A stretch of 57,178 nt of DNA. Origin: Fibrobacteria bacterium. GTDB taxonomy: Bacteria; Fibrobacterota; Fibrobacteria; UBA11236. This document shows positions 18,535-56,695 of the stretch, piece by piece. The DNA lies in assembly GCA_025360005.1 (NCBI GenBank), contig JANYDA010000039.1:1-57178 (forward strand), read 5' to 3'. Both the position numbers and the translations under genes were made by a program. The notes under the pieces are model-generated. The model saw only the letters and a program-made list of their open reading frames with translations. It did not search any database and was not told where the DNA came from. Positions within the stretch are counted from its first letter, which is position 1, and each line of letters starts with the position of its first letter.

Positions 18535-19439
18535 TCGCGCATCCGCGGATCCAGCCACACCGCCAGCAGATCATTCGCCAGCATGAATACCCGGATCAGG
18601 AAAGCCATCACCAAGGTGATCCCCATGATGACGGAGAAGTCCCGCTTTAGAGTGGCTTCCCAGCTCAGCCAGCCCAGGCCATGGAAGTTGAAAATGCGCT
18701 CCACCACCACCAGGCCTCCCAGCAGCACGGCCATGTTGGTCACGATGATATTGAAAATGGGCAGCACCATGGATCGGAAGAAATGCTTCCAGAGCCTGCT
18801 GCCGCGCGCTCGCGCGGCCTTGATGAACATGGCGCTGTTCACGTTCTGCACTTCCAGCGAGATGAAGCGGACGAATTCGCCGATAGTGCCGTTGCCAACC
18901 GCCAGCACGAAAATCGGCAGCGAGTAGTAGCTGATGTAAGGCCAGAATTGGAATGGCCCGTCCGGCGGCGTGGTCACGTAGAAGCGGAACACGCCAAACA
19001 CCACCGCCAACACGATGTAGCCCAGCACGAAAACGGGAATGGAGGAAAGCGTGTATATCCCAAGGCTGATGAATTTGCCCAGAGGCGAGACCGGACGCAG
19101 GCCGCGATACACTCCCAAGGGAATGGCCACCATTAAGGAAAGGAAAAGCGATCCGAAAGTGAGCAGCAAGGTGGGCGGCGCGTATTCCGCGATTTGGCTG
19201 GAAACCTTGGCGCCGTTCACCATGGAGATGCCGAAGTCAAAGCCGAGGCAGCCCTTGAGCCAAAGGAAGTATTGCGCGGGAAGGGGCCGGTCCAGATACA
19301 ACTGATGCGCAGTGCCGGGCGAAAGATTATGGATCTCAGCGATATCGCCGGGAGTCAGATGGATGATGCTGAAAATCAGGAGGGAAACGAGAAGCAGGGA
19401 GCCGGCGAAAAAACCGACGATTTTGGCGATGGATCGCAT
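18531..19439 (-). CDS. OppB/DppB-like ABC transporter permease
   Basis: The 302-residue permease begins with a transmembrane segment (IVGFFAGSLLLVSLLIFSII). It contains the DppB-type region PAQYFLWLKGCLGFDFGIS, the EAA-like loop KAARARGSRLWKHFFRSM, and the C-terminal LLAVWLDPRMRE, which matches the family's DPR-IR ending. It pairs with the OppC-like protein to form the inner-membrane channel. It follows the lipoprotein gene after 161 bases that contain a strong hairpin. Confidence 0.95.
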   Translation of the reverse strand: MRSIAKIVGFFAGSLLLVSLLIFSIIHLTPGDIAEIHNLSPGTAHQLYLDRPLPAQYFLWLKGCLGFDFGISMVNGAKVSSQIAEYAPPTLLLTFGSLFLSLMVAIPLGVYRGLRPVSPLGKFISLGIYTLSSIPVFVLGYIVLAVVFGVFRFYVTTPPDGPFQFWPYISYYSLPIFVLAVGNGTIGEFVRFISLEVQNVNSAMFIKAARARGSRLWKHFFRSMVLPIFNIIVTNMAVLLGGLVVVERIFNFHGLGWLSWEATLKRDFSVIMGITLVMAFLIRVFMLANDLLAVWLDPRMRE

Positions 19440-19528
19440 GCCTTATTCCAACCTTTTCCCGCTTGCTGGAGGTCCTGAAACCTTGTCCCCCGCACCATTA
19501 TGGCCTATCGACAGACCCTGGAACAAGC

Positions 19529-19558
19529 CGCGGCCCGCTGCATTGCAACCGGGCCGCG
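19529..19558. other. Intra-operon hairpin between binding-protein and permease genes
   Basis: CGCGGCCCG (19529-19537) and CGGGCCGCG (19550-19558) are perfect 9-bp reverse complements around a 12-base loop. The transcript reads through it on the minus strand without a following U-tract, so it fits an mRNA-stabilising or processing hairpin better than a terminator. Confidence 0.5.
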
Positions 19559-19600
19559 ATTCCGGCCTCTTATCCGGCCGCTATCCTGTAGATACGGTGA

Positions 19601-20023
19601 CTAGGGGCTGGATTTCAGAATCTTCTCGCCCAATCCGGTAGTATTGCCCTCATTGGGGCCGCCTTCCATAACGGCATCCTTGCCGTCGATTTCCCGCGAT
19701 AGGCGGACGATGATATTCTTGTTCGCGCCCTTCTTAGGCTTAAAGGAGCGGACATAGCCCATGTTGCCGTCCTTATCCTCCGCGATCAAGGTGTACTCAT
19801 TTTCCTCGATGACATTCTGGCCCAACTTGAAGGTGCCGTCCTTGCCTACGCGGACGGATTCCGTGCGCGGACTGGTATAGACGACCACGTTGGGATCGGT
19901 GAGGCCGGATCCATCGGGTTTGACCACGTGACCGCTCATGGTGGTCCCGCAACCAGCCAAAAGGGGCAGCAGCGCCAGCCCCCATCCTATGCCGTTACGC
20001 TTCCTTGCAGCCATTGGAGCCAT
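19601..20023 (-). CDS. Small lipoprotein with carboxypeptidase-regulatory-like domain
   Basis: The 140-residue product has a lipoprotein signal ending in LLPLLAGC (lipobox L-A-G-C), so it is probably anchored by lipid. The mature part (GHVVKPDGSGLTDPNVVVYT through GTFKLG and YTLIAEDKDGN) looks like a small beta-sandwich of the CarboxypepD_reg type. I use the ATG at 20023, with AAAGGGA upstream; a GTG at 20029 is also possible. It sits seven bases after the binding-protein stop and ahead of the permeases, which suggests an accessory of the transporter. I cannot name it further. Confidence 0.75.
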   Translation of the reverse strand: MAPMAARKRNGIGWGLALLPLLAGCGTTMSGHVVKPDGSGLTDPNVVVYTSPRTESVRVGKDGTFKLGQNVIEENEYTLIAEDKDGNMGYVRSFKPKKGANKNIIVRLSREIDGKDAVMEGGPNEGNTTGLGEKILKSSP

Positions 20024-20029
20024 GTGCAC

Positions 20030-21643
20030 TCAATCCCTTTCGTCCTCTGGAATGAACCAGTCGTTGATAAAAGTGAAAAACCGGTAGGGATGAACCACCG
20101 CCTTCTTAACCTTGTTCTCGATGGCGGCATTCTTTTCCAGGGTCCAGAGGAACGTGTAGGGGCAGTCCTCGGCCAGGATTTCATGCAGCTCATAATTGAT
20201 GCGGCGGCGTACTTCGTGATTGATGGTGGTGGAGAACTTCATCAGCAGACTGTCCACCTTGGGGTTCTTATAGGAGATGAAGTTATCGCCGGAGGGCGGT
20301 TGGTTCTTGGTGGAATAGAATAGCGAGGAGATGTCCGAGGAGTTATCGAACAGCCACTCGGCGAAAACGATATCGAAGTCATGCTTGGATTTGACTTCCT
20401 CCTTCCACTTCTCATATTCGCGATGCTGGAGCTCCACCTGCACGCCGAGGGCCTTCAGATAATTCTGGAAGCGCAGGCACACGGAAAGGCCGCCTTCATT
20501 GCCGCTATAGATGGGAATCTTCAGCTTGAACTTGAGAGGCATGCCCTTGTACTCGCGAATGCCGTCCCCATCCGTATCCTTGATGCCCACCTTGTCCAAC
20601 AGGGCCTTGGCCTTAGAGGCATCGTATGGCCAGGGAGCCACGTCCGGATTGTAACCCCATGATGCCGGTGAAAAGGGCCCGGAAATGACTTCCCCCTTCC
20701 CGAAGTAGATGTCTTCCAGCATCTTATTCCTATCCATCCCCATGGTGAAGGCTTGCCTTACCTCCTTGATGCGCAGGATGGGGTTGTTGTTGTTGTACCC
20801 GAAAAAGGCGAAAGCCAGCGAGTTGTAGGGAATAATCATGAACTTGCCCGTGTTCGCGATTTCCGCGATCTTGCCTGGCGGTACTTCCACCACCAGGTCG
20901 ATGGCGTTCAAGAGCAGGCTTTGCACCAGCAGGGACATTTCCGGCTGGTAGACCATTTTCACTTCCCCGATGTTCGGGGGACCGCCGTAATGGTCGGTGA
21001 AGGCGGTGAGGATCACATCGTGATTCTTGGTTTCACGATCGAACTTGTAATAGCCGGTGCCGATGGGATTCTTCGAGAATTTGGAGAACTTGGACAGCAC
21101 GGGTTTGCCGCCAAACAGATGCTCGGGCACGATTTTGAAAAGGAAGCGGCGTTCCGGCTCCGCCACGCTCGTGGCGAAATCGAACTTCACCACATAGTCG
21201 CCCAATACGGAAACGCTCTTGATGACTTCCAGGGCCTGCCGGCTTTCCGGGCGCACGTCCGACAAGGGATTCATGATGGCATCGTAGGTGAATTTCACGT
21301 CGTTTGCCGTGAACGGCGTGCCGTCATGCCATTTCACGTCCTTGCGGAGGTAAAAGGTAATGCGTTGGTTGCCGTTGAACACGTTCCACTTTTCGGCCAA
21401 GCGACCTTTGACTTCGCCGCGATAATCGATATATACCAGGGACTCGAAAAGCAATTCCGAGAGGCGCAGGGAGGTTTCGTTGTCAGAGGTGGTGATCGGA
21501 TCGTAAGTATCCGGCAGAATAGGTTCGGCGTAGATCAGCCGGCCGCCTTTCAAGTCGCCTCCCCCGCCTTTACCAGCGGCAATGGCCGCCGTGCAGCATA
21601 TCAAGGCCAGCGCCACGCAATTCAGAGTCTTGAAATATGGCAT
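20030..21643 (-). CDS. Peptide ABC transporter substrate-binding protein (SBP family 5)
   Basis: The 537-residue exported protein starts MPYFKTLNCVALALICC with a signal peptide. KGGRLIYAEPILPDTYDP is the usual N-terminal pattern. ITFYLRKDVKWHDGTPFTANDVKFTYD is the SBP_bac_5 signature (here over about residues 120-146), and the C-terminal lobe includes RQAFTMGMDRNKMLEDI. It captures peptides or similar ligands for the OppBCDF-like complex. I chose the ATG at 21643 because AGGA lies eight bases upstream; several in-frame starts reach back to 21856. The 209 bases between it and the TPR gene show no clear feature. Confidence 0.93.
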   Translation of the reverse strand: MPYFKTLNCVALALICCTAAIAAGKGGGGDLKGGRLIYAEPILPDTYDPITTSDNETSLRLSELLFESLVYIDYRGEVKGRLAEKWNVFNGNQRITFYLRKDVKWHDGTPFTANDVKFTYDAIMNPLSDVRPESRQALEVIKSVSVLGDYVVKFDFATSVAEPERRFLFKIVPEHLFGGKPVLSKFSKFSKNPIGTGYYKFDRETKNHDVILTAFTDHYGGPPNIGEVKMVYQPEMSLLVQSLLLNAIDLVVEVPPGKIAEIANTGKFMIIPYNSLAFAFFGYNNNNPILRIKEVRQAFTMGMDRNKMLEDIYFGKGEVISGPFSPASWGYNPDVAPWPYDASKAKALLDKVGIKDTDGDGIREYKGMPLKFKLKIPIYSGNEGGLSVCLRFQNYLKALGVQVELQHREYEKWKEEVKSKHDFDIVFAEWLFDNSSDISSLFYSTKNQPPSGDNFISYKNPKVDSLLMKFSTTINHEVRRRINYELHEILAEDCPYTFLWTLEKNAAIENKVKKAVVHPYRFFTFINDWFIPEDERD

Positions 21644-21852
21644 TGTTCCCATCCTGAACACCGAGTTTATGGCTTTCCGTCCCCTCATGGTTCCTTTCAT
21701 AAACGGAAACCGCTTCCGGCTACCGCGACGATCCTCAATCGCCTCTTCTCTTTGGCCACTAACGCTCCGGAAGGAGCGGGGCCCATCAAACACGGCAGGT
21801 GTATCTCCACCCACGGTTCCCTCAACTGCAGGTGCCTTCACCCACGGGTGCT

Positions 21853-23280
21853 TCACCCGCCCTTACGGAAAATCCTTTGGGATTCATAGCTCCGCGCCAA
21901 TCCAGCCGAAATCCCCTGCATACAGTAATGCATTTGCCGGCAGGCGGGGAATTCCTTTTGCAAATGATAGAGCGTCTCCACGATCTCCTCGTACCTCAAT
22001 TTATTCGTCTTGAAAATAGCGAATGCATAGTCGGTCATGTATTCCGGATCGATTTGATCAATGCGATTCCGGTATTCGATCTTATATCCCTTGGCATATT
22101 GTTGCATGGCGGACTCGGTTTGGCCCGTTGCGAACAACAGATTCGCGTAAGTCCGATAGTAATTCGGCCCGTTTTTCTCCCTAACGGCTTGCCCGGCCAG
22201 CTTCAAACCCTTATCCAGGTCGAAACCCAAAAGATAATAACAGTCGGCGATATCCCTTTGATCGGAAGGACTTTTCGCGGTATTGGACACGGATTCAAGG
22301 AGGGCTTTGGCCTCACCGACCTTGCCGGTATGCGCGAGCACTTGCGCTTTGACCAATTGGGATTCGATATCCGCGTCCTTGGGCAAATAACCGGCCGCTT
22401 CTTTCCATTGCCCCAGCCGCGCGGAGGACTCCGCCAACGCTTGATCCGTATTGAACTTGGCAGCCAGATCGGGGAAACGCTTTTCCTCATTTTGGATGCG
22501 CAAATTGGTGAGTTTGCTTAGCGTGTAGTAAGCGTCGGATAGGGTTTCCATCAAAAAGGGATCGTAGAAGTTTATCTGGGTGTTCTTACCCTGGTCCAGG
22601 TACATTTCCGGTTGTTGGGCATCATTCAAAACCGCCTTGAGGGTATTTTCGATATCGTCGGCCACCGGCGCGGCGCTGCGAAGTTGTATTCTCAACTTGC
22701 AACGCCGGCTGCGTTGGGATTGGCCCGCCATGTTTGGGGGAATATCCGCCGCGCCGGCCCCCTTTAGCTCCATCGCCTGCCACTGGGAAGCATTGTCTTT
22801 GACGCCGTTCATTTCTGCGGAAGCCTCGCCAAGCCGCTTGCGGGCAAAGAAGAGGAATACATCGGCCATTTCCTGGACAGCGGAACCGCCTGCGCCCAGT
22901 TTCTTAGCCTTTTCAAACGAGGTTTTTGCTTCCGCGAACTTCCCCCCCTGGTATTGGATTTGTCCCAGGTAAAGGTAATGGATGGCACTTGCCCCGGTTT
23001 CGACCAAAGCCGCATAGTATTCGGACATGATGGCATTGGAAAAACCCGAGTAGACGCCATAGAGGCTCCCCAAGCGGAAATAGGCAAGCGATTGGCCCTT
23101 GAGGGCGCGCATCCCTTTTTCATCCAACTTCCCGCCGTCCAGATCCTTATCCCATGTCATCACGGCTTCGTCATAACGATGCCGACGGATAAGGTCAACG
23201 GGGTCTTCCTTCGCTTCGCCCGGCACATACGACAGTGCGAAGAGGAAGAGGAGCAGACCCTTAGTTCTTGAAAAGGTCAT
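21853..23280 (-). CDS. Secreted TPR-repeat protein
   Basis: The product (about 475 residues) has a signal peptide (GLLLFLFALSYVPGEA). Helical repeats of the tetratricopeptide type follow, for example AIHYLYLGQIQYQGGKFAEA, LVKAQVLAHTGKVGEAKALL and YANLLFATGQTESAMQQYAK. It is probably periplasmic or envelope-associated and acts as a protein-interaction scaffold. The start overlaps the stop of the TolB-like gene by 20 bases. No enzymatic motif is visible. Confidence 0.82.
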   Translation of the reverse strand: MTFSRTKGLLLFLFALSYVPGEAKEDPVDLIRRHRYDEAVMTWDKDLDGGKLDEKGMRALKGQSLAYFRLGSLYGVYSGFSNAIMSEYYAALVETGASAIHYLYLGQIQYQGGKFAEAKTSFEKAKKLGAGGSAVQEMADVFLFFARKRLGEASAEMNGVKDNASQWQAMELKGAGAADIPPNMAGQSQRSRRCKLRIQLRSAAPVADDIENTLKAVLNDAQQPEMYLDQGKNTQINFYDPFLMETLSDAYYTLSKLTNLRIQNEEKRFPDLAAKFNTDQALAESSARLGQWKEAAGYLPKDADIESQLVKAQVLAHTGKVGEAKALLESVSNTAKSPSDQRDIADCYYLLGFDLDKGLKLAGQAVREKNGPNYYRTYANLLFATGQTESAMQQYAKGYKIEYRNRIDQIDPEYMTDYAFAIFKTNKLRYEEIVETLYHLQKEFPACRQMHYCMQGISAGLARSYESQRIFRKGG

Positions 23281-44017: not shown

Positions 44018-45676
44018 CTATGGAAATTCCAGTAGGGACATTTCGGTTTTTTGGTTTTCGTAAGCTAGCCGGAGCCAATCGGAAGAGCGAGCCACTCCGG
44101 CTATTTGCACCTCATCGATTTGCCCGAAGAAGCCATACCCGTTAATACCGTTGCCATGCGTTCCGATCCAGAGATCTTGTCCGAGCGGATAGGCGATAGG
44201 ACCTTGAAAGGAAACCACAGATTTTTCTTTTCCATCCATGTAGATACGTAAGCTAGTCCCGTCGAAAATCCCGGCGATAAGATGCCAGCGATTATCGATC
44301 AACCGGGAGGCGGCCACGGTGGCCCGTCCCCACTTGTCCGAAGGCGGCGATACTCCTCCGGTCCATTTGGAGTCCTTAAATGCGAAAAAGGTGGGGTCGC
44401 CTTTCAGATCCAGGCGTAAGCCACAATTATCTCCTAGAGAAACGATTTCCCCTCCCATGCTATCTGTACCGCTTGCCGTAATCCAAGCGGATAAGGTCAG
44501 AGAAGTGCCGGGCGTTAAAATCTTCGCGCCTGGGGCGTGTAGGTAGTGTGTACCATAGAATCGACCGCCGTATCCCCACACGGCTTTCCTATTACCGGAT
44601 TGTATTCTCCCCTGGGCATCAGCGCGAGATGGAGATGCATCCCGGAAAACGAACTCCTCCGAGGCGCCAATCGCTTCGCGCATATGCCATACCCCGCTGA
44701 AGGAAGAAAAAACAGATTGGCCGCTGGAAAAGTCTGGCGCGTTCCGTTTACCCCAATACATGGTGACCGGGAATGATCCGGCACCTGCTGGAATACTGTC
44801 TAGGTGAATCCAGATTTCCGCGTGCTTGGAGGCTGGTTCCCAACGCTCTACCTCATAAGCTAGATGGTTTCCGTCCGGACCCGCAAATCTGAAATCCTTC
44901 CCGTTCGAGAGGTTAAAATTGAAATTCTCCTGAGTCAGCCTAACCAGCAATGGGAAATCAACCACCTTTTCCGTCACCCCTGCCTGTGCTGTATGTACCA
45001 GGATTTCGCGCGACAATGGCCAAGTGGAATATTCCTCTCCTGCGAAACTGTCCAAGGGGATGGGAGCGATCAGGGTAGTGGCTCCAGAGGCGATGAGGAC
45101 AGGATCGCTCGGACGGTATGCCCGACCAGGGAGGGAAGAAACCTCTTGAATGAGATAACTCCCGCGGGCCAAACCCGCAATGCAGAAATCGCCATTGGAA
45201 TTTGCCTTCGCCACTTTGTCCAACCCATAGACTTGGACATAGGCCGAACCCTGCATTCTACCATTCGCGCTCAAGCTCCCCTCCAAGGAACCTAGCGGAC
45301 GCAAAGTATCCTCAGCCAGTTCCGCAGATTTCCCAGATGCCTCGAATTCCATTCGGCTACCACGCGCCGAATCATCGCGCGCTTCCAGCGTGTATGAGCC
45401 CGCCTGCAAGGATTTTACGGCGAAGCCACCCCGTGCATCGGTCCAGGCATCCGCTGGAGGCAGCGGTTTCCCGGCTTCCCCGGTATCCCGTAGGTATTCG
45501 CTGGGACGAATCCAAATCCGAACCCCTGCCGCGGCTGCGCCGTCAGTATATATCAGCTTACCCACCACAACGGAGCCGTTGGTATCTTCCGAGCCACTGC
45601 CCCCGCCACCGGCTAGGCATCCCGCCAGCGCCAAACCCAGTGAAAGCGGAATCCAAATGCTGCGAAAGGTCTTCAT
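44018..45676 (-). CDS. DUF2341/LamG lipoprotein with carboxypeptidase-regulatory-like domains
   Basis: The 552-residue product has a lipobox (LALAGC, Cys20) followed by a GGGGSGSE linker. Two CarboxypepD_reg-like modules span about 37-120 and 128-205 (GGFAVKSLQAGSYTLEARDD and GDFCIAGLARGSYLIQEV). A DUF2341 domain covers about 240-330 (FPLLVRLTQENFNFNLSNGK and FPVTMYWGKRNAP). A LamG/concanavalin-like domain forms the end (about 340-548: LTLSAWITASG, HLIAGIFDGTSLRIYMDG, GQIDEVQIAGVARS). It probably sits on the cell surface and binds glycan. Its ATG overlaps the stop of the TIGR02147 regulator gene (ATGA). Confidence 0.88.
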   Translation of the reverse strand: MKTFRSIWIPLSLGLALAGCLAGGGGSGSEDTNGSVVVGKLIYTDGAAAAGVRIWIRPSEYLRDTGEAGKPLPPADAWTDARGGFAVKSLQAGSYTLEARDDSARGSRMEFEASGKSAELAEDTLRPLGSLEGSLSANGRMQGSAYVQVYGLDKVAKANSNGDFCIAGLARGSYLIQEVSSLPGRAYRPSDPVLIASGATTLIAPIPLDSFAGEEYSTWPLSREILVHTAQAGVTEKVVDFPLLVRLTQENFNFNLSNGKDFRFAGPDGNHLAYEVERWEPASKHAEIWIHLDSIPAGAGSFPVTMYWGKRNAPDFSSGQSVFSSFSGVWHMREAIGASEEFVFRDASPSRADAQGRIQSGNRKAVWGYGGRFYGTHYLHAPGAKILTPGTSLTLSAWITASGTDSMGGEIVSLGDNCGLRLDLKGDPTFFAFKDSKWTGGVSPPSDKWGRATVAASRLIDNRWHLIAGIFDGTSLRIYMDGKEKSVVSFQGPIAYPLGQDLWIGTHGNGINGYGFFGQIDEVQIAGVARSSDWLRLAYENQKTEMSLLEFP

Positions 45677-46656: not shown

Positions 46657-46758
46657 CCTTCCTGATAGACTGGGGAAAAAGAATGGGGACCCCGATTAAC
46701 CGGGTCCATCCAATCTACCCGTTGGAATGCCCGCGAACCGAGGGAGAGTCGATAAGTG

Positions 46759-46841
46759 CGCTGCAACGCCGCAGCACTTTTTCCGAAGTCGCATGGTTAT
46801 CGCGCTTGGTACCGGGCCCTTGCCTATACCTTATGGGAAAC
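46759..46841 (+). repeat. Leader repeat, copy 2
   Basis: CGCTGCAACGCCGCAGCAC opens the copy and is identical to copy 3, followed by TTTTTC, AGTCGCATGGTTATC, TACCGGGCC and ATACCTT. The dyad AAGTG..CTGC / GCAG..CACTT plus a T-run could also act as a weak terminator in RNA. It stands about 315 bases upstream of the propeller gene and is followed by a remnant of a lyase signal peptide. Confidence 0.8.
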
Positions 46842-46902
46842 TTTTCGCTTTCGGTACGGAAGAAAATACTACGGAACACAGCAACCTACATCATTCCCGA
46901 AA

Positions 46903-47079
46903 ATGTCTGCCTCCAATACTGAGAAGATTGCTTATGCCGCGATATTCGGATTGGATTGGGTCCCATCGGTTGCAGCATCGAATTACCTCATGATCTCCAG
47001 GACCTTCTTCAAGCTTAGTTTTCGTGGAAATTTAACTGAGACTAGTAGTTCGGAAATATCATTATGGGGTAGAAGATAG
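46903..47079 (+). pseudogene. Remnant of the 5' end of a polysaccharide-lyase gene
   Basis: A 58-codon frame starts MSASNTEKIAYAAIFGLDWV and continues PSVAAS. It resembles the signal peptide of the lyase-like gene at 48926 (CALIFGLACIPSIVSAA). The two share an exact 14-base block, GATATTCGGATTGG (46941-46954 and 48997-49010), at nearly the same distance from their leader repeats (182 and 186 bases). After the signal peptide the similarity disappears. I read this as a truncated duplicate left by rearrangement; a small secreted peptide is the alternative. Confidence 0.55.
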
Positions 47080-47155: not shown

Positions 47156-48658
47156 ATGAAAATGGCAATGAATTGCTTGGGAATGGTTTTGTCGCTTCTG
47201 ATTTCCAATCTTGTGGCTGAGGTCTTTTCCGGGACGGTCATCGATTCGGTAAGCGGCAAAAAACTGGCTCGTGTCAAAGTCGGGATGGATGACACGCATT
47301 TCGTATGGACGGATTCGGCCGGTAATTTCGTTTTCAATACCGAGGGAAATGTGGGTATCGGGAATCGCAATGGCCTAAACGGAAATTTGATTACTTGGAA
47401 TTCTGGGGATGCCAACATTCAGATCCCGAGAAATTTTCCGGGCTTAAAAATTCAACTGAGGAACATCGAAGGAAAACTCATTCGCAGCTATTCCCCCGAA
47501 AATTCCAGTGTGGGTTCAAAGGTTTCCCTTCCAAATCTCCCCATGGGTATTTATTCACTTTCCATCCGTAATGCCGGCAAAATCTTAACCCAACGGACAA
47601 TGTTGATTAACGGTCCTACCCAGTTGGCCATGAACGAAACCGTGGTATCCGAAAAGGCAGGCTTATCCAAGTCCGCGAGGACCCAAGCGATATCCTTGAA
47701 GTTCACCAAGCCGACTTACTATACGTCGGAAAAAACCTTTGCCAATAGTCAAAATAACGTCGTGATTCCCTTGCGCGAGGATTTTTCACCGACCCGCCAT
47801 GATTTTATGTCCGCGGCGGAATGGCAATGCACCCCCAATTGCGAGACCAACCAGAAGATGTTTATCGTTCGCGGCGGAAAAGTGGTGTGGACCTATACCG
47901 AACCGCTTCCTTGCGAATTTGATGATGCCTGGGTGCTCTCGGACAGCTCCATCGTCATGTCCTTGCGCTATGGCGCCCGCAAACTCAAGAGCATCCATGA
48001 TCCCACGTCGACCTGGTACATTTACGAAAATATCAAGACCCAAGGCGAAATCCACGTCACTCAGCCCTTGGACTTGAATAGGGTTTTCGTATGGGTGAAT
48101 GAGGGAAACCATAACACCGGCCTTATCATCAATACGCAAACCGGAGATACCCTGAAGAAATTTGACATCCCCAGCGGGAACAGCAGTTTCCATGGTGGTG
48201 GGAGGCATGCCCGCTTTACCAGGGAAGGGACCCTGATGGTGGCGCATTTCAACCTTAATAAGGTAGCGGAATATGATACCGCGACCATGAAGGAGATCTG
48301 GTCGTATCCGGGGAAGGCCTGGGCGGCGGTAAAGCTCAGGAACGGGAATTTGCTCATCAGCGGTGACGGTGAAGGCTGGGTGCGTGAAATCAACCGGGCC
48401 ACCAAAGCAATCGATTGGGAAATCAACCTCAAGAACTTTCCGAATGTTAAATTCGGCGCGTACGTCCAAGGGATCACGCGCCTTTCCAATGGAAATACCA
48501 TTATCACGAATCATAGAGGCGATCCACCGATTTTGGAAGTGAGCCCCGACAAAAAAATCGTCTGGAGCGTGAGCAAGGATATAATACCCCTCTCTAGCAC
48601 GGTTCAGATATTGGGCGAAGAAGGCGTCCCTGAAAATCCAGGCGATCTCCTGCGCTAG
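47156..48658 (+). CDS. Secreted beta-propeller (arylsulfotransferase/PQQ-like) with N-terminal accessory modules
   Basis: The 500-residue exported protein has a signal peptide, then a CarboxypepD_reg-like module (about 22-60, GTVIDSVSGKKLARVKVG). A module resembling a sorting/FlgD-like domain follows (about 75-155: IEGKLIRSYSPENSS, LPNLPMGIYSLSIRNAGKIL, TQRTML). The C-terminal 280 residues are propeller blades such as GTLMVAHFNLNKVAEYD, KLRNGNLLISGDGEGWVREI and RLSNGNTIITNHRGDPPILE, as in ASST/PQQ-type proteins. No catalytic residue can be assigned. GGCGGGG lies upstream of the ATG. It heads the lyase operon. Confidence 0.78.
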   Translation: MKMAMNCLGMVLSLLISNLVAEVFSGTVIDSVSGKKLARVKVGMDDTHFVWTDSAGNFVFNTEGNVGIGNRNGLNGNLITWNSGDANIQIPRNFPGLKIQLRNIEGKLIRSYSPENSSVGSKVSLPNLPMGIYSLSIRNAGKILTQRTMLINGPTQLAMNETVVSEKAGLSKSARTQAISLKFTKPTYYTSEKTFANSQNNVVIPLREDFSPTRHDFMSAAEWQCTPNCETNQKMFIVRGGKVVWTYTEPLPCEFDDAWVLSDSSIVMSLRYGARKLKSIHDPTSTWYIYENIKTQGEIHVTQPLDLNRVFVWVNEGNHNTGLIINTQTGDTLKKFDIPSGNSSFHGGGRHARFTREGTLMVAHFNLNKVAEYDTATMKEIWSYPGKAWAAVKLRNGNLLISGDGEGWVREINRATKAIDWEINLKNFPNVKFGAYVQGITRLSNGNTIITNHRGDPPILEVSPDKKIVWSVSKDIIPLSSTVQILGEEGVPENPGDLLR

Positions 48659-48810
48659 GGAAATTGCTGCGGGGCACCTACCCTGCCCCTGCGAGTAAAA
48701 TGTCAGAGTCGAGGAGCTCTTGAGTTCTGGCATACCCGACATAAAAGTCCCGCCCCCACCCCCATCCCACAATTTCAGCTTGTCGTAAGGCAGGAAAAAG
48801 TCAAAGACCG

Positions 48811-48891
48811 CGCTGCAACGCCGCAGCACTTTTTCAGGAGTCGCATGGTTATCATGCATGTTACCGGGCCGTTTCCCATACCTTGTGAAAC
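48811..48891 (+). repeat. Leader repeat, copy 3
   Basis: Opens with GCTGCAACGCCGCAGC (48812-48827), identical to copy 2, and continues TTTTTCAGGAGTCGCATGG, TTATC, TTACCGGGCC and CATACCTTGTG. It ends 34 bases before the ATG of the first lyase-like gene, so it lies where a promoter or 5' leader should be. Confidence 0.8.
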
Positions 48892-48925
48892 GACACCCCT
48901 ATATCCGGATTGAAAGAAAACTACC

Positions 48926-50050
48926 ATGGAAAAACGGCGACCTATCCAATCCCTTAAATCGGTCCCAGCGGTCTTTGCGAATAGCACCTGCGCGCTGATA
49001 TTCGGATTGGCATGTATTCCATCCATCGTGTCGGCAGCAATCATCAATACCGCTACCTGGGTCAGTAATGATTTCAATGATGGAACCATGGCCCCCTTCT
49101 ATTCGTGCACCACACAAAGCCCGGCATATGTGGTTCCTTTTACCCTGAACGGTGAGCGGAGCCTGGAATTCTATTGGACCCAGAAGGGCTATGACGGAAC
49201 ACGCATGGACCGGGGCGCGGAGGCCTGCTCCCGGCTAGACATCCGCAAAGAGGGCTGGTCGGCCTTCCGGTTCTACATGCCTTCACCGGGATTCCCCACC
49301 AACAAGGACGGCGCCATCGCCCAGATCTTCGCCGAGAACGGATGCAGTTCCTGGGCGGCCATGGTGGAATACCACAACAACACCATGATCGTGTCGCATC
49401 GCTCGAGTTGCGGCGGCCCCGCGCAACCCATCCTCAGCAAGGATATCCAGCGCAATACCTGGATTCCCGTGATCATGCATTTCGTAATCTCCCACCAGAA
49501 CAAGGGTCTGCTTGAAATCTGGTATGGAGACGCTCCGGAAGCAAATCCGACCTACCGCTATACGGGCAATTTCGCCTGGGGCCAATGGAGCGGCGATTCG
49601 CTGAATCCCGCCATCGGCGACAACATGATCAAGTTGAAAATCGGGATGTACAACTTCCAGTATGGCAATTATGACAATGGCGAGGAACGCAGGCTGTACT
49701 ACGACAATGTCACGCAGATCAATGGTAATCCACCCAATGCCTGGTCCCTGGTGAATCCCATGAAGGCGGTTAGCGCCACGTCGGCCCTTCCCACTACGGG
49801 TGAACCATTCACCTTCTCCTTGAGCGGACAAGGCGTGATGCATTCCAGCAATTACGGCAAAGTGACCGGAGTGCGGATCGTGGATACCCGAGGGAATTTG
49901 ATCCAGGCATTGACAGCGGATACACAGAGCCTTACCTGGGATGCTAAGGACGGAAGGGGCCGGCTGGTCCCTAACGGTGTCTATTATGTGACGCTGAACG
50001 GCCCGGCCCGGTCGGCTACGTTCACGATTAACAACATCCGGAAACCATGA
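48926..50050 (+). CDS. PF14099-type polysaccharide lyase-like jelly-roll protein (cassette A, gene 1)
   Basis: The 374-residue exported protein (signal peptide near residues 20-37) has a catalytic-type beta jelly roll resembling the Polysacc_lyase family (PF14099, relatives of PL13/PL20). Diagnostic stretches are FNDGTMAPFYSC, DRGAEACSRLDIRKEGWSAF, AIAQIFAENGCSSWAAMV, NTWIPVIMHFVISHQNKGLL and KLKIGMYNFQYGN. The C-terminal 70 residues form a FlgD/sorting-like module (GVRIVDTRGNLIQALT, LVPNGVYYVTLNG). It would cut an acidic polysaccharide such as alginate or glucuronan outside the cell. It is paralogous to the protein encoded at 52539. Confidence 0.75.
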   Translation: MEKRRPIQSLKSVPAVFANSTCALIFGLACIPSIVSAAIINTATWVSNDFNDGTMAPFYSCTTQSPAYVVPFTLNGERSLEFYWTQKGYDGTRMDRGAEACSRLDIRKEGWSAFRFYMPSPGFPTNKDGAIAQIFAENGCSSWAAMVEYHNNTMIVSHRSSCGGPAQPILSKDIQRNTWIPVIMHFVISHQNKGLLEIWYGDAPEANPTYRYTGNFAWGQWSGDSLNPAIGDNMIKLKIGMYNFQYGNYDNGEERRLYYDNVTQINGNPPNAWSLVNPMKAVSATSALPTTGEPFTFSLSGQGVMHSSNYGKVTGVRIVDTRGNLIQALTADTQSLTWDAKDGRGRLVPNGVYYVTLNGPARSATFTINNIRKP

Positions 50051-50099
50051 GGGGCTTTAATACCGGGCGTATGCCGATCATCGGAGGGGTAAAAACACT

Positions 50100-51446
50100 A
50101 TGAGATTTTTTTACGCATCGGCCGCCTTTTTTATAGCCCTAAATTTCCGGCCCGCGTATCCGGCGGTGTTTGTCCATCCCGGCATGCTCCATAACCAAGC
50201 CGAACTTGATTTTGTCAAGGACAAGGTAAAAGCGGGGGCCCAGCCCTGGAAAGCCGCTTTGGAAAAACTCCGGACCTATCCCGGCGCCAGTCTCACCTGG
50301 GTCCCCAAACCCCATGCGGACGTGATCCGCGGGCCTTACAATAATCCCGATGTGGGCGCCGGGGATATGGAGAAGGATGGGGCCGCGGCATACGCACATG
50401 CCCTGCAATGGAGCGTGACGGGAGACGAGGCCCATGCCCGCAAGACCGTGGAGATCCTGAACGCCTGGTCCGGCGTCTTGAAGTCCATCACCGGTCATGA
50501 CGCCTTGCTTCTGGTGGGCATGACCGGGCAGATGTTCCTGAACGCGGCCGAACTCATGCGGCATACCTATACCGGCTGGAGCGACGCGGACCAGGAACGG
50601 TTCCGGAGCATGCTCCGCAATGTCTACTACCCGCTCATCAAGGACTTCTTCCCCACCGCCAACGGCAACTGGGACGCCTCCATGATTCAAACCATGATGG
50701 CCATGGGCGTGTTCCTGGACGATACCGCCATGTTCAATCGGGGCGTCAACCATTTCCTCACTGGGCATACCAACGGGGCCATCGGAAATTACGTGAATGC
50801 GTTCGGGGAAAGCCAGGAAAGCGGCCGCGACCAAGGCCATACCCAGATGGGCCTTGGATTCCTCGGCTGCGCTGCCGAGATCGGCTGGAAGCAGGGCGTG
50901 GATTTGTACGGGGCCTTGGATAACCGGCTGGCCCTGGGATTCGAATATACGGCCCAATACAACCTGGGCCAGAACGTGCGTTACGAAGCGTATCGCAGCA
51001 TCGACGGGACCTACAACTATACCTCCATCTCCACCAGCGGCCGCGGCGGTTTCCGTCCCATCTTCGAGCGGGTATACCAGCACTACCATGTCCGCAAGGG
51101 AATGGACATGCCTTTCACCAGGCAGGTCGTCGAACGCAATCGGCCAGAAGGCTGGGCGGTTCAGCATGCCTCCTGGGGAAGCTTGGCCTATGCGGGTGTC
51201 CCGGCATATCCCATGGGGTACTCGGGTCCCAGTACGGCCATCCGGATACAGTCGACTGAAAACGGAGTCGTCTCCAGTATTGCAAGGGCGCGGTTGGGGT
51301 TTCGCAAAGGGGATGCATGGGGGGTTCGGATCATGCAGCCCGGAATGGGTGTTGGTATAAGGGTTCGGGATGTGTCGGGAAGATTGAGATCCGAAATTCC
51401 CATACTTGAAGTCTTAATGAATGGCGAAGTGGGTGGAAATGAGTGA
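50100..51446 (+). CDS. Alginate-lyase-family (PF05426, PL38-like) protein (cassette A, gene 2)
   Basis: The 448-residue exported protein starts with a signal peptide and FVHPGMLHNQAELDFVK, the standard entry of the PF05426 alpha/alpha-toroid lyases. Core motifs are YNNPDVGAGDMEKDG, FFPTANGNWDASMIQTMMAM, GVFLDDTAMFNRGVNHF and ESGRDQGHTQMGLGF (probable catalytic His/Tyr neighbourhood). PL38 members cleave glucuronan or alginate; the substrate here is not proven. After residue about 385 the C-terminus is unlike its paralog and contains only a stub of a sorting-like module (GIRVRDVSGRL). GGAGGGG precedes the ATG. Confidence 0.88.
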   Translation: MRFFYASAAFFIALNFRPAYPAVFVHPGMLHNQAELDFVKDKVKAGAQPWKAALEKLRTYPGASLTWVPKPHADVIRGPYNNPDVGAGDMEKDGAAAYAHALQWSVTGDEAHARKTVEILNAWSGVLKSITGHDALLLVGMTGQMFLNAAELMRHTYTGWSDADQERFRSMLRNVYYPLIKDFFPTANGNWDASMIQTMMAMGVFLDDTAMFNRGVNHFLTGHTNGAIGNYVNAFGESQESGRDQGHTQMGLGFLGCAAEIGWKQGVDLYGALDNRLALGFEYTAQYNLGQNVRYEAYRSIDGTYNYTSISTSGRGGFRPIFERVYQHYHVRKGMDMPFTRQVVERNRPEGWAVQHASWGSLAYAGVPAYPMGYSGPSTAIRIQSTENGVVSSIARARLGFRKGDAWGVRIMQPGMGVGIRVRDVSGRLRSEIPILEVLMNGEVGGNE

Positions 51447-52542
51447 TGCATTTTCCGGGAAGGCCGGCAAGAATGCGGTCGGACTTCTTCTCGCGACGGG
51501 GATATGCCTATTTACGGGGAAGCCGGCCCAAGGCTTGGATATCAGCGTTCCCATCGGGGGCGATATCCAAAGCGCGGTCGACCAGGTTTCCGCCTCCGGC
51601 GGAGGGACGGTCAATCTCGCCACCGGCACCTATGTCCTCAACTCTTCCTTGCGGATCAAAAGCAAGGTCACACTCAACGGATCGGGAAACCAAGCCACGG
51701 TCCTCCAGGCGACCGGCGGCTTCACCGCCATTCAGCAAGCCTCCGAACAACTGGACAATGTGGCCATCCAAAACCTGAGCATTATCGGAAAACGCGTATC
51801 ATGGGCCCAGGGCATCGTTATCTCCTCGGGGAGCTCCTACCATGAGAATGTCAGGATCTCCAATGTGAACGTCTCCGAATGCGGAGCGGGTGTCCATGTC
51901 AAACGCGCCAACAATGTGACCATTAGCAATTGCAACTTCAGCGGCAACGGCACTTCGGTTCCCGCGGATCTCAAGTTCGCGCATAATCTGTACATCCGGG
52001 CCTGCAATACGGTGAAGGTGAGCGACGTCGTATTGAATGGCTCGCCCTCCGGGAACGGTCTAAATATTTCCTATTGCAAGGACGTGACCGTGGTCCGCTG
52101 CGAGGCCAAGAACAACTTTTTCCGGGGCATGCGAGCCGCCGATACCGACGGTTTCACGGTGCAAAACTGCGTCCTCAGCGGAAACGGCGATGTAGGCTTG
52201 ATTGCCAATTCGGAAATAACGGCCACCAAGAACATTAATTTCATGGCTTGCCTCGCCCTCAACAATCGGGGAGGCGGCATCCAGGGGGTTTCGGGAGTCA
52301 CGGGTAGCGTGACGGATTGCGTTGCCTCCGGAAATGAGGTCTTCCAATTCAATCTTCCAGACGCCGTTAAAAAATCGCAGAATCAGACTACGGTATCTTT
52401 GGCCGCCCGGGTCCTTTTAAAGGACGCTCCGAACGGGAAAGGCAATATCTATGCCCCGTTTAGATTCCAGGGCCCCACAGGAATTTTCTCCGCCACCGGC
52501 CGAGCGATTCCACCCCTTCTCACGAACGGAGCGAACCTATGA
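51439..52542 (+). CDS. Right-handed parallel beta-helix protein (cassette A, gene 3)
   Basis: The product (367 residues from the ATG at 51439; an ATG at 51421 is possible) has a signal peptide and a pectate-lyase-like fold. GGDIQSAVDQVSASGGGTVN caps the helix, followed by NLATGTYVLNSSLRIKSKVT and repeated turns such as VRISNVNVSECGAGVHVKRA, VTISNCNFSGNG and VTVVRCEAKNNFFRGMRAAD. This fold holds lyases, epimerases and surface binding proteins. The gene overlaps the end of the PL38-like gene by 8 bases and the start of the next by four. Confidence 0.85.
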   Translation: MSDAFSGKAGKNAVGLLLATGICLFTGKPAQGLDISVPIGGDIQSAVDQVSASGGGTVNLATGTYVLNSSLRIKSKVTLNGSGNQATVLQATGGFTAIQQASEQLDNVAIQNLSIIGKRVSWAQGIVISSGSSYHENVRISNVNVSECGAGVHVKRANNVTISNCNFSGNGTSVPADLKFAHNLYIRACNTVKVSDVVLNGSPSGNGLNISYCKDVTVVRCEAKNNFFRGMRAADTDGFTVQNCVLSGNGDVGLIANSEITATKNINFMACLALNNRGGGIQGVSGVTGSVTDCVASGNEVFQFNLPDAVKKSQNQTTVSLAARVLLKDAPNGKGNIYAPFRFQGPTGIFSATGRAIPPLLTNGANL

Positions 52543-53564
52543 ATATACTCTTCCTGTCCGGCCCGGTATTGATCGCGATTTCACTAATCCAGGGGCAAAC
52601 TTTTCTAACCGGCAATTTCGACGATGGTTCCATGGGCCCCTTCCATATGTGCACCACCCAAAATCCGAACTATGCCAAGGTGGTGGACGGACACGTCGAG
52701 ACCTACTGGGTACCCTCATCCCACCGGGCCGGCGGAAGGATGACCGCAGGAGCGGAATTCTGTTCATCGTGGAAAACCGTCAAGGAAGGATGGTACGGAT
52801 TGAAGTTCCGGCTCGGCGCCGAATTTCCGCAGAATACTTTCGGAGCCGTTTGCCAAATCTTCCAGAACACGGACGGGAATTCCGGTTGCAGTTCCTGGGC
52901 GGCCATTATGGGCATCCAAAACAATAATCTCTACATAAACCATCGCGCCGCCTGCGGGGATCCCACGCATGGGGAACTCTATCCCAACTTACCTCGCAAT
53001 GTCTGGTTCAATGTGGTACTCCACTATATCGCATCGCGACATAATGCGGGCCTTATGGAAATCTGGGTGAACGGGGAGCAAAAGTACCGGAAAACCGGTA
53101 TCAATTTCGGGTTCAATTCCTGGAGCGGAGATAGTCTGGGTGCCGGGAGTCCGCTGACCCATAAGGCGGGTCAGTACAACTGGGTAGACGTAAACCAATT
53201 CACCACGCCTTGGGTCATACAGTACGACGATATCTCTATGTATAATGCGCCGGACGGCTATGCCAAGGTTGATCCCTCGAAACCGATTTCCGGCTTGAAA
53301 CAAAAGGACCCAGGGAAGGCGGAATCCATCGGACCCGTCTTCGTTACATCCCCGACCTCGGATCGTATTAATGTTGACATGGGCAAGGACTTTCCCGGAG
53401 GAGCGGAGATAAGGATCTTCTCTCCGAGAGGCGAGTCGATGATTGCCGTCAAGGCTACTTCCCGTTTCCATTCCCTTTCGCTCCACGGCATTTCTCCAGG
53501 CTTATATTTCATGACCTTTCGCGCGGGAACCCGTGTCGTAAAATCCAAGCTGATCAAATCTTAA
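52539..53564 (+). CDS. PF14099-type polysaccharide lyase-like protein (cassette B, gene 1)
   Basis: The 341-residue exported protein parallels the one at 48926: GNFDDGSMGPFHMCTTQNP, TAGAEFCSSWKTVKEGWYGL, GAVCQIFQNTDGNSGCSSWA, NVWFNVVLHYIASRHNAGLM and EIWVNGEQKYRKTG. The paired Cys and the GCSSWAA block are shared by both copies. The C-terminus is a sorting-like module (AEIRIFSPRGESMIAV, HGISPGLYFMTFRAGTRVV) resembling type-A domains of type IX-secreted proteins, but no such system is seen here. The start overlaps the beta-helix stop (ATGA). Confidence 0.75.
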   Translation: MNILFLSGPVLIAISLIQGQTFLTGNFDDGSMGPFHMCTTQNPNYAKVVDGHVETYWVPSSHRAGGRMTAGAEFCSSWKTVKEGWYGLKFRLGAEFPQNTFGAVCQIFQNTDGNSGCSSWAAIMGIQNNNLYINHRAACGDPTHGELYPNLPRNVWFNVVLHYIASRHNAGLMEIWVNGEQKYRKTGINFGFNSWSGDSLGAGSPLTHKAGQYNWVDVNQFTTPWVIQYDDISMYNAPDGYAKVDPSKPISGLKQKDPGKAESIGPVFVTSPTSDRINVDMGKDFPGGAEIRIFSPRGESMIAVKATSRFHSLSLHGISPGLYFMTFRAGTRVVKSKLIKS

Positions 53565-53606
53565 TATCCCGAACATTCCCCGAACATTAAGAAGGGAAAT
53601 AAACCC

Positions 53607-54962
53607 ATGCTACCTCTTCGCATGTCAACTGTTCTATTGATGCTATGCCTACTGCCCCGATGCATAGCGGCTTTCGTCCACCCCGGCATGCTCCACAATC
53701 AAGGTGAACTTGACTTCGTCAAAGGCAGACTCCAGGCTGGCGCCCAGCCCTGGAAGGCCGCAGGGGACAAACTTATGGCTGACCCCAAAGGCAGCCTGGC
53801 TTGGATCCCCAAACCCAGGGCGAACGTGGTTCGCGGAGCCTACAACAATCCTGATCTCGGTGCCAGCGACATGGAAAAGGATGGCGGCGCGGTCTATGCG
53901 CACGCCTTGCTATGGAGCGTGACGGGAGACGAAGCCCATGCCCGCAAGGCCGTGGAAATCCTGAACGCATGGTCCGGCACGCTGAAATCCATTACCGACC
54001 ATGACGCCATGCTTCTGGTAGGCATGGCCGGACAGATGTTCCTGAACGCCGCGGAGCTTATGCGCCACACCTATAACGGCTGGAACGATGCCGACCAGGA
54101 ACGGTTCCGGGGCATGCTCCGCACCATCTACTACCCGCTCATCAAGGACTTCTTCCCCACCGCCAACGGCAACTGGGACGCCTCCATGATCCAAACAATG
54201 ATGGCCATGGGCGTGTTCCTGGACGATACCGCCATGTTCAATCGGGGCGTCAACCATTTCCTCACCGGCCAAACCAACGGGGCCATCGGATTTTACGTGA
54301 ACACCTTCGGGGAAGTTCAGGAAAGCGGGCGCGACCAAGCACATACCCAGATGGGGTTGGGCTTCCTGAGCTGTGCCGCCGAGATTGGCTGGAAGCAGGG
54401 TGTGGATTTGTACGGGGCCTTGGACAACCGGCTGGCCCTGGGGATCGAATATACGGCCCAGTACAACCTTGGACAGAACGTGCGCTATGAGCCCTACCGA
54501 AGCATAGACGGGAAGTACAACTATACATCCATCGCCACCAGCGGTCGTGGAGATTTCCGGCCTATATATGAGCGGGTATACCAGCACTACCATGTCCGTA
54601 AAGGTTTGGAGATGCCCTTCACCAAGCAGGTCATCGATCGCATCAGGCCGGAAGGAGGGCATCTTCAACATGCCTCCTGGGGGACTCTCCTTTATGCTGG
54701 CGTACCCGTTTATCCCATGGGCTATGGAAATCCCGCTATCAGCATCCGAATGCGACCAAATGGATTTTCGCGAACAAGTCCGGAAGAAGCTTTTAAAGTG
54801 GTTTCAAATATGGACCCGGAAAAGGTCAGGTACCTTGGATTTTTCGGCCTCGGCGTTTCGGATGGCATCCAAGCCTTTGATGTTCAAGGGAAAATTTCGA
54901 CGATGGAAAATAAACAGCGTGAATCCTCAAGACCTTTGAGTCTGGAAGGGAGGGGGAAATGA
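53607..54962 (+). CDS. Alginate-lyase-family (PF05426, PL38-like) protein (cassette B, gene 2)
   Basis: The 451-residue exported protein is very close to the one at 50100. Long stretches are identical, such as FFPTANGNWDASMIQTMMAM, GVFLDDTAMFNRGVNHFLTG and AAEIGWKQGVDLYGALDNRL, and the DNA itself is nearly identical around 54130-54290 versus 50630-50790. The C-terminal 65 residues (after SIRMRP) are unrelated to those of the paralog, ending in a stub GIQAFDVQGKIST. The first gene of each cassette has diverged far more than this second gene. The stop overlaps the next start (ATGA). Confidence 0.88.
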   Translation: MLPLRMSTVLLMLCLLPRCIAAFVHPGMLHNQGELDFVKGRLQAGAQPWKAAGDKLMADPKGSLAWIPKPRANVVRGAYNNPDLGASDMEKDGGAVYAHALLWSVTGDEAHARKAVEILNAWSGTLKSITDHDAMLLVGMAGQMFLNAAELMRHTYNGWNDADQERFRGMLRTIYYPLIKDFFPTANGNWDASMIQTMMAMGVFLDDTAMFNRGVNHFLTGQTNGAIGFYVNTFGEVQESGRDQAHTQMGLGFLSCAAEIGWKQGVDLYGALDNRLALGIEYTAQYNLGQNVRYEPYRSIDGKYNYTSIATSGRGDFRPIYERVYQHYHVRKGLEMPFTKQVIDRIRPEGGHLQHASWGTLLYAGVPVYPMGYGNPAISIRMRPNGFSRTSPEEAFKVVSNMDPEKVRYLGFFGLGVSDGIQAFDVQGKISTMENKQRESSRPLSLEGRGK

Positions 54963-56695
54963 ACAACGGTATCCTCGCCGGCATTTTACTAATCATGGCA
55001 ATTGCTTCCCCCCGCATGGGGAATGCCGCCGTGGTAGGCGATACCCTGAATGGAATAGTCACCGATTCCCTCGATTCACCGCTGGACGGCGTACATGTCG
55101 AATCGGAAGGGGTTTCCGCAAGAACCAAAGGGGATGGGACTTTCCAATTGGTGTTTTCCACTACTACCCGCATTGGGCCGATCAAACCGATGGGCCAGGA
55201 GCAGAGAGTCCTTTGGAATCCGGAAAGAAGCGCCTTCTCCTGGCCAAAAGCGGATGGGGATATTTCCATCAGGATACAGGACATACTTGGGCGCACGGCT
55301 GCCCAGTACTCATCTCCGCAGGGCTCCGAAGGGGGCGAGTTTTCCGTCGCGAAATTGCCGCATGGAAACCTTATTGCCTCCATCAGGATTCAAAACCGGA
55401 CCGAGGCGGATAATAGGCTGATCCATCTTTCGGGACTAGCGGGCAGCGGACAAGGCGCCTTCTCACGGGCTTCCGGCGCGGGTTCGACCCTGCTTGCAAA
55501 GGCCGCGGCGACAGTCCGCCCCTATGGGGTGACCTTTACCATGCCCGGGTACAAATCCGATACGGTAATGGTGGCTTCGGGGCACGCTAATGGTTCCATA
55601 GTTAAAGTGAGGCTGTCTTCCACCGGGGAAGCGAAGAGCGCTTATGCGTTGACCCACGTGGAATTGGAACCGGAGGTTACCTCCCTCATCGAAAGCAAGT
55701 GGAAAGGCGCCTTTGTCCACGTGACCTATCCCACCCAATGGTTGGGCAATGTGCAAACCGTCAATCCCGGCGGTTCCATACAGGCGGCGATCAATGCGGC
55801 GAATGCGGCCGGAGGCGGCGTGGTCCTGTTGAAAGCGGGGACCCACATTATCACGGGCTCGATCACCTTGAAGAGCAAGGTAACCTTGACAGGAGAAGGT
55901 CGGGCTCGAACCATTCTAAAGCAAGGCCCCGGTATGGGAGGCAACGCGTTCGGTGCCAACGGTACCGAGGCGAACGACGTGGTGATCAAGGATCTGACCC
56001 TGGACGGCACGCGCGCGGGAGGAGCCAACGGGATATACCTCGCGGGAAATACGAACCGGATCATGCTTCAGAATATCACCCTGACAAATTGGGGCGGGAT
56101 GGGCGTCCACATGAAAAGGATCAACAACATCATCATGGACAATTGCGTTTTCCAATACAATGGGGCCGCGAACGGGCTCTTCCACAACGTCTATTTCCTG
56201 CACAATCAAAACATACTTCAATCCGATTGCGACATGTCCAATCCGATATTGGGCAAGGGAAACAAATACACGTCTTGCAAGTACGTGATCGCCCAAAGGT
56301 GCGTCATCAGGAATTGCAGCGGGAACGGAATCCAGGCCGATAATACCGAGGCCAGCTACATCCTTTTTCACAAGTATACCGTGTCCGGATGCGGCCGTGT
56401 CGCCTTATGGTTCCCCTGTGAAAATTTTTCAAGCAAATACACCTATACGGAAAACCCCGCGTACGCACCGCAAAACGTGATCTTGAGCCGATGCACGATA
56501 GTGGATAATACCTGGGGCGCCATGTGGCGGCTGGTCGGAAACTCCTTCGTCATCAACAGCACCTTCGCCAATCAAAAAATCGACATGGGGTTGCTGAAGT
56601 GCGGGGTCACTATGGAAAACAGTGCCTTTGCCAAAGGGAATCAGATTTATACCGACGTCAAGCAATGGCCGTCTGACGTGCAAATACTTTGGTAA
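54959..56695 (+). CDS. Beta-helix protein with N-terminal accessory modules (cassette B, gene 3)
   Basis: The 578-residue exported protein has a signal peptide, a CarboxypepD_reg-like module (NGIVTDSLDSPLDGVHVESE, about 24-43), and a sorting/FlgD-like segment (about 85-150: DISIRIQDILGRTAAQYSSP, VAKLPHGNLIASIRIQNR). A linker follows (to about 250). The beta-helix starts with GGSIQAAINAANAAGGGVVL and LKAGTHIITGSITLKSKVTL and includes turns rich in Asn and Cys (IIMDNCVFQYNGAANG, CVIRNCSGNGIQADN). The first 210 residues match the architecture of the propeller protein at 47156, while the helix matches the protein at 51439. Confidence 0.85.
   Translation: MNNGILAGILLIMAIASPRMGNAAVVGDTLNGIVTDSLDSPLDGVHVESEGVSARTKGDGTFQLVFSTTTRIGPIKPMGQEQRVLWNPERSAFSWPKADGDISIRIQDILGRTAAQYSSPQGSEGGEFSVAKLPHGNLIASIRIQNRTEADNRLIHLSGLAGSGQGAFSRASGAGSTLLAKAAATVRPYGVTFTMPGYKSDTVMVASGHANGSIVKVRLSSTGEAKSAYALTHVELEPEVTSLIESKWKGAFVHVTYPTQWLGNVQTVNPGGSIQAAINAANAAGGGVVLLKAGTHIITGSITLKSKVTLTGEGRARTILKQGPGMGGNAFGANGTEANDVVIKDLTLDGTRAGGANGIYLAGNTNRIMLQNITLTNWGGMGVHMKRINNIIMDNCVFQYNGAANGLFHNVYFLHNQNILQSDCDMSNPILGKGNKYTSCKYVIAQRCVIRNCSGNGIQADNTEASYILFHKYTVSGCGRVALWFPCENFSSKYTYTENPAYAPQNVILSRCTIVDNTWGAMWRLVGNSFVINSTFANQKIDMGLLKCGVTMENSAFAKGNQIYTDVKQWPSDVQILW

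Follow-up and report, generated by a model that had tools for sequence, protein, structure and literature searches.

A probable mosaic array of secreted, predicted polysaccharide-cutting proteins in a Fibrobacteria genome

The window, the whole 57,178-nucleotide stretch of DNA analysed here, is one complete contig (C16) of the 4.98 Mb genome (98% completeness) of a Fibrobacteria bacterium. A check of its open reading frames placed seven genes near one end, all on the forward strand: a gene for a propeller-like secreted protein (47156–48658), followed by the same three gene types twice in succession, here labelled A (a jelly-roll lyase type, PF14099), B (a toroid lyase type, PF05426) and C (a right-handed beta-helix). 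The first triplet consists of A1 (48926–50050), whose product ends in a FlgD_ig/T9SS-type tail, B1 (50100–51446) and C1 (51421–52542); the second consists of A2 (52539–53564), with a T9SS C-terminal sorting domain, B2 (53607–54962) and C2 (54959–56695), which carries an extra N-terminal module of ~230 aa absent from C1. Both triplets lie where the original prediction had put them, and their junctions are tight or overlapping: B1 and C1 overlap by 26 nt, the C1/A2 and B2/C2 overlaps are ATGA, and gaps of 49 nt and 42 nt separate A1 from B1 and A2 from B2. The 267-nt gap between the propeller gene and A1 contains a repeated leader element, suggesting that the propeller gene may be transcribed apart from A1. 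Scans for consensus promoters and terminators gave no more matches than shuffled sequences. The contig ends 483 bp past C2, so the array may continue.

The leader element 5' of A1 (48799–48887, forward strand), delimited by repeat comparison within the genome, is 89 bp long, combines a GCTGC-AACGCC-GCAGC hairpin with a T run, occurs in two full copies in the whole genome and found no match in an Rfam search. Upstream of the propeller gene, on the same strand, a repeat at 46747–46967 is 83–87% identical to it over the 89 bp, and homology then continues in register to 46967, with a local score of 54 against 34 for the best of 500 shuffles. This remnant, A0, comprises a decayed A1 leader and first codons, and corresponds to 48799–49023.

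An N-terminal hydrophobic stretch is present in all seven products by crude hydropathy (not SignalP), in line with the signal peptides predicted for them. A scan of the 20 other main open reading frames of the window found no TonB receptor, no SusD and no sugar kinase, and neither these frames nor the array genes include the SusC/SusD pair of a polysaccharide utilisation locus. The further claim that no transporter is encoded in the window did not hold, as oligopeptide-type ABC transporter genes lie at 15189–21856, some 25 kb from the array. The array is adjoined by a TIGR02147 Fibrobacter-type gene; this neighbour, together with relics of 81–90% identity on a second contig of this assembly, led us to drop contamination as an explanation.

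The assignment of A to PF14099 was confirmed by hmmscan, in which both A1 (2.6e-13, 50.8 bits) and A2 (9.3e-13, 49.0 bits) exceed the curated gathering cut-off of 29.9. With the PL20 glucuronan lyase of Trichoderma (2ZZJ, PF14099) they share the jelly-roll family, a Q-x-F stretch (AQFIAN / AQIFAEN), a GC..W segment and a late G-x-Y motif. A wider PF14099 profile whose members include A1 and A2 matches 2ZZJ at 5.5e-17, and hhalign of A against 2ZZJ gives a weak match (E 1.5e-4, probability 51). Unlike 2ZZJ, A1 and A2 are bacterial, lie in a lyase array, bear an extra C-terminal sorting-type domain, and by themselves give no direct match to it among PDB sequences, whether A2 alone or an A1/A2 profile is used (phmmer, hmmsearch); a PDB search with a PF14099 protein of the same genus as query also found no match. 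The AlphaFold (AF2) model of A1, built from two sequences, has a pLDDT of 33.8. On these sequence comparisons, A is PL20-like and a predicted glucuronan-type lyase.

B1 (1.6e-22, 80.7 bits) and B2 (2.9e-23, 83.2 bits) likewise match their family, PF05426, well above its gathering cut-off of 22.2 in hmmscan. Foldseek with the AF2 model of B1 (pLDDT 81.5, tail disordered) retrieved PL5, PL17 and PL38 alginate lyases with E about 1e-6 at 11–18% identity, so that model and Pfam together place B in the (alpha/alpha) toroid fold class of PF05426. The catalytic residues tell a different story from the fold. As references we used A1-III (H192/Y246) and BoPL38, whose catalytic pair is H243 and Y298 (PMC13169297). 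In an alignment of 62 B-type sequences, the Asn of the N-H motif (N190) is kept in 62/62, while the His is replaced by Trp (W191) in 61/62. The catalytic-Tyr position is occupied by T, V, A, S or P in the HMMER alignment, or by His247, in 57/57 testable sequences, if the QG motif is taken as the anchor and the position is placed 18 residues before it; both registers stayed possible after hhalign comparison of B with fragments of A1-III and BACOVA_01668, and under neither does a Tyr appear. Given the 11–18% identity, some doubt about the active-site register remains. The nearly invariant residues among the 62 sequences are instead Y98, E240, R243, D244, H247, Q265 and E282, yielding a motif N-W...ESGRDQxH (B1 positions 190, 191, 240–248). 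The original description of B as PF05426/PL38-like was therefore right about fold and Pfam group but not about PL38: membership of PL38, or of PL5, was dropped, the chemistry of B may differ, and B is probably an enzyme outside both families. PL38 enzymes act on alginate, glucuronan and hyaluronan (PMC13027841), and PF05426 membership alone therefore cannot assign a substrate.

The C proteins match PF13229 above the curated cut-off in hmmscan (C1 9e-18, C2 6.7e-10), and by eye share two conserved stretches, GVHxKRxNN and HNxY. C1 also weakly matches the alginate C5-epimerase AlgE6 (E 2e-4). The match is confined to its N-terminal part, the first repeats, and an AlgE-type epimerase was dropped as an identity for C; the DPHE motif, which we take to be the catalytic motif expected of such an enzyme, is visible in neither C1 nor C2. 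The propeller protein has weak Pfam matches (Mala_s_1-like 3e-4, Por_Secre_tail 1.5e-4), all under cut-off, and a paralogue on contig C26 (32% identity) that itself exceeds the Mala_s_1-like cut-off; it may be a member of the functional set. Its N-terminus consists of a CarboxypepD_reg-like and T9SS-sorting-like module, which C2 shares (23% over 128 aa). A sorting-type domain is unusual in such an internal position.

A type IX route to the surface is suggested most directly by A2, whose sorting domain scores 25.4 bits against TIGR04183 (NCBI cut-off 23) in a genome that encodes SprA of the T9SS (match of 507 bits). A2 alone combines the two features; A1 and the propeller protein fall under the tail cut-off, and B and C have no such tail domain.

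None of the other genomes examined has the triplet order, whose absence from relatives had been named beforehand as grounds for rejecting the prediction. The 167 other Fibrobacterota genomes searched contain no homologue of A2 at E up to 1e-5 and none of C1 at E up to 1e-12; PF14099 proteins exist elsewhere in the phylum, those read being unlinked to B, and B-type genes are single in several Fibrobacterota relatives. Outside the phylum, one scan recovered at least 528 confirmed relatives of B. Among the best matches listed, identity reaches 54–66% in Planctomycetota, Verrucomicrobiota and one Acidobacteriota, compared with 40–46% in the organism's own genus and family. No A gene lies within 8 kb in any of the 80 loci of the best B relatives (best 80 of at least 528), and a scan of genome contigs with the A pair gave 92 pattern matches and 0 relatives.

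Kin of A outside the phylum came to light when the search was extended from the B loci to the complete genomes that contain them. This covered 50 of the 80 loci, and A was found only in Pedobacter frigiditerrae, where two A genes directly precede a B gene (A-A-B, ~4 kb) whose product has CBM6/35 and a T9SS tail; the neighbours are GH78, GH29, GH3, GH43, GH88, GH92, sulfatase and heparinase-II/III-type genes. Some 45 kb away in the same genome, another B gene has a C1-like beta-helix gene two genes away, along with sulfatase, GH39 and GH3. Among 400 genomes of Pedobacter's family, Sphingobacteriaceae, two others contain A: in one (G222) B is ~6 kb from A, followed by SusC/SusD, GH88, GH95, GH97, a ROK kinase and an MFS transporter, while the other (G586) has a weak A match and no B. 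Two independent A+B loci are unlikely to have arisen by chance (about one per cent each by our own estimate, which assumes a 5–6 Mb genome with about three B genes), though two cases are few. These homologues sit in CAZyme loci of the Bacteroidota SusC/SusD type; the Fibrobacteria array differs in having no SusC/SusD, GH88 or sulfatase beside its genes and in encoding purely secreted proteins. The close kin of A1 in Bacteroidota, and of B in Planctomycetota and Verrucomicrobiota, make horizontal acquisition likely.

The original prediction had the three types acting as a unit on one acidic polysaccharide. Although the triplet itself does not recur, A beside B in two Sphingobacteriaceae loci with GH88, and a C-like beta-helix beside another B, support a shared uronate-rich substrate. 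B relatives elsewhere likewise have PL8, sulfatase, GH88 and heparinase II/III genes nearby. The PL20 kinship of A, and the rhamnosidase, fucosidase and GH88 genes that accompany the Bacteroidota loci, make a glucuronate-containing polymer the most likely one. The strongest competing reading, which we regard as serious although less probable, holds that the substrate is alginate, glycosaminoglycan-like or pectin-like instead of glucuronan-like, with C a C5-epimerase or a GH28-like enzyme. It draws on the AlgE6 match of C1, on the PL8, sulfatase and heparinase II/III genes near B relatives, on a GH28 gene among the B paralogues on contig C50, and on the action of RiPL38 on hyaluronan (PMC13027841). 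Weighing against it, the solved structure most closely related to A is a glucuronan lyase, and the AlgE6 match, restricted to the first repeats, comes with no visible DPHE.

Whether the repeated gene order reflects one duplication of a cassette can be judged from the divergence of its parts. Protein identity is 74% between B1 and B2, 34–38% between A1 and A2, and 31% between C1 and C2, whose architectures differ; differences at fourfold-degenerate sites are 0.41 (B), 0.72 (A) and 0.65 (C). A tandem duplication should leave all three pairs similarly diverged, and they are not. The "tandemly duplicated cassette" thus survives as a repeated order, and a single clean duplication is not supported by such unequal pairs. 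An ancestral A-B-C cassette that was duplicated in tandem long ago, its A and C copies diverging while gene conversion or selection kept its B copies similar, would reproduce the order and the similar spacing, but we think it rather unlikely. Third-position identity between B1 and B2 rises to 0.93 in codons 161–200 from about 0.40 in the first 40 codons, hinting at gene conversion in mid-gene as expected of an older pair; the B1/B3 and B2/B3 pairs, however, show raised identity over the same stretch. In a tree of 62 sequences B1, B2, B3 (on contig C50) and B4 form one group, B3 being 71–75% identical to B1 and B2, and B1 sits, weakly, with the off-site B3 instead of with B2 (SH-aLRT 87). A1 and A2 do group in the best tree (support 83/77 with outgroups), as an old duplication would have it, yet A1 is far closer to a Sphingobacteriaceae homologue (55% identity over 250 columns) than to A2 (38%). 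We dropped A1 and A2 as certain within-lineage duplicates, given this support and a p-AU of 0.056 for the alternative topology. C1 and C2 are each about as close to a Pedobacter beta-helix as to one another.

The genome also holds signs of gene turnover. It contains 11 PF05426 genes and one fragment, five of the genes, B3 included, within 14 kb at C50:93000–107000. This cluster resembles the array in its B-type paralogues; it differs in having no A gene and in its GH28, GH8, alpha-galactosidase-like and glucose/sorbosone dehydrogenase companions. Directly upstream of intact B3, a relic at C50:101212–102046 (L010:1213–2047) contains the 3' end of the window gene 44018–45676 and, in three collinear pieces, C2 sequence that carries frame breaks and internal deletions, at 81–90% DNA identity; the degraded C2 copy itself spans C50:101521–102046. 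A broken B fragment lies at C26:409–614 (L015), ~3.5 kb from the propeller paralogue. With A0, these relics of all three types suggest an array in a state of copying and decay.

That unrelated secreted proteins merely cluster in a CAZyme-rich region, sharing a locus but no joint action, we consider improbable: the confinement of the triplet to this genome, the solitary B genes in the other Fibrobacterota loci read and the 80 B loci free of A would fit it, but overlaps or short gaps link A, B and C on both occasions, and two genomes from a different phylum also have A beside B.

We therefore favour, with reasonable though not high confidence, a mosaic array of secreted, probably surface-delivered, predicted polysaccharide-cutting proteins directed against a uronic-acid-rich, most likely glucuronate-containing, polymer, rather than the product of one clean duplication. 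Under this proposal, the PL20-like jelly roll A and the PF05426 toroid B would cut uronate linkages from outside by beta-elimination, and the beta-helix C, whether lyase, hydrolase or epimerase, would act on the same chain, the products leaving the main chain open to other enzymes. B1, B2 and B3 would be recently related through duplication and possibly gene conversion, the A and C pairs would be old, and the broken A and C copies would mark continuing birth and loss. No GH88/GH105 (PF07470) gene was found in the genome, which makes it more likely that the exported proteins strip a uronate-rich coating polysaccharide than that they complete its use. Fibrobacter removes non-cellulosic polymers that it does not itself use, which fits this coat-stripping proposal. 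More speculatively, B could typify an undescribed polysaccharide lyase family, widespread in Planctomycetota, Verrucomicrobiota and Bacteroidota, in which the catalytic Asn-His/Tyr of the toroid active site is swapped for Asn-Trp, with His in the Tyr helix; such a family would act with PL20-like A and beta-helix C on one glucuronate-rich polysaccharide, and we hold this only tentatively.

Fibrobacterota are best known for cellulose degradation. Here, two lyase groups, one PL20-like and the other an uncharacterised PF05426 clade, are joined in what is probably one transcription unit, and in the open-access literature we found no paper that combines PL20 and PL38 with polysaccharide utilization. 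Among the genomes examined, only this one has the strict triplet; what deserves following up is the A+B partnership and the B group. For a lyase group of at least 528 relatives, the pairing in Bacteroidota CAZyme loci yields a guess at the substrate that can be tested. For the organism, lyase genes seem to have been borrowed, re-copied and lost in a genome that lacks the usual GH88/GH105 step; the array is accordingly best read as a mixture of old genes with borrowed and re-copied ones, whose proteins probably strip a uronic-acid-rich polysaccharide.
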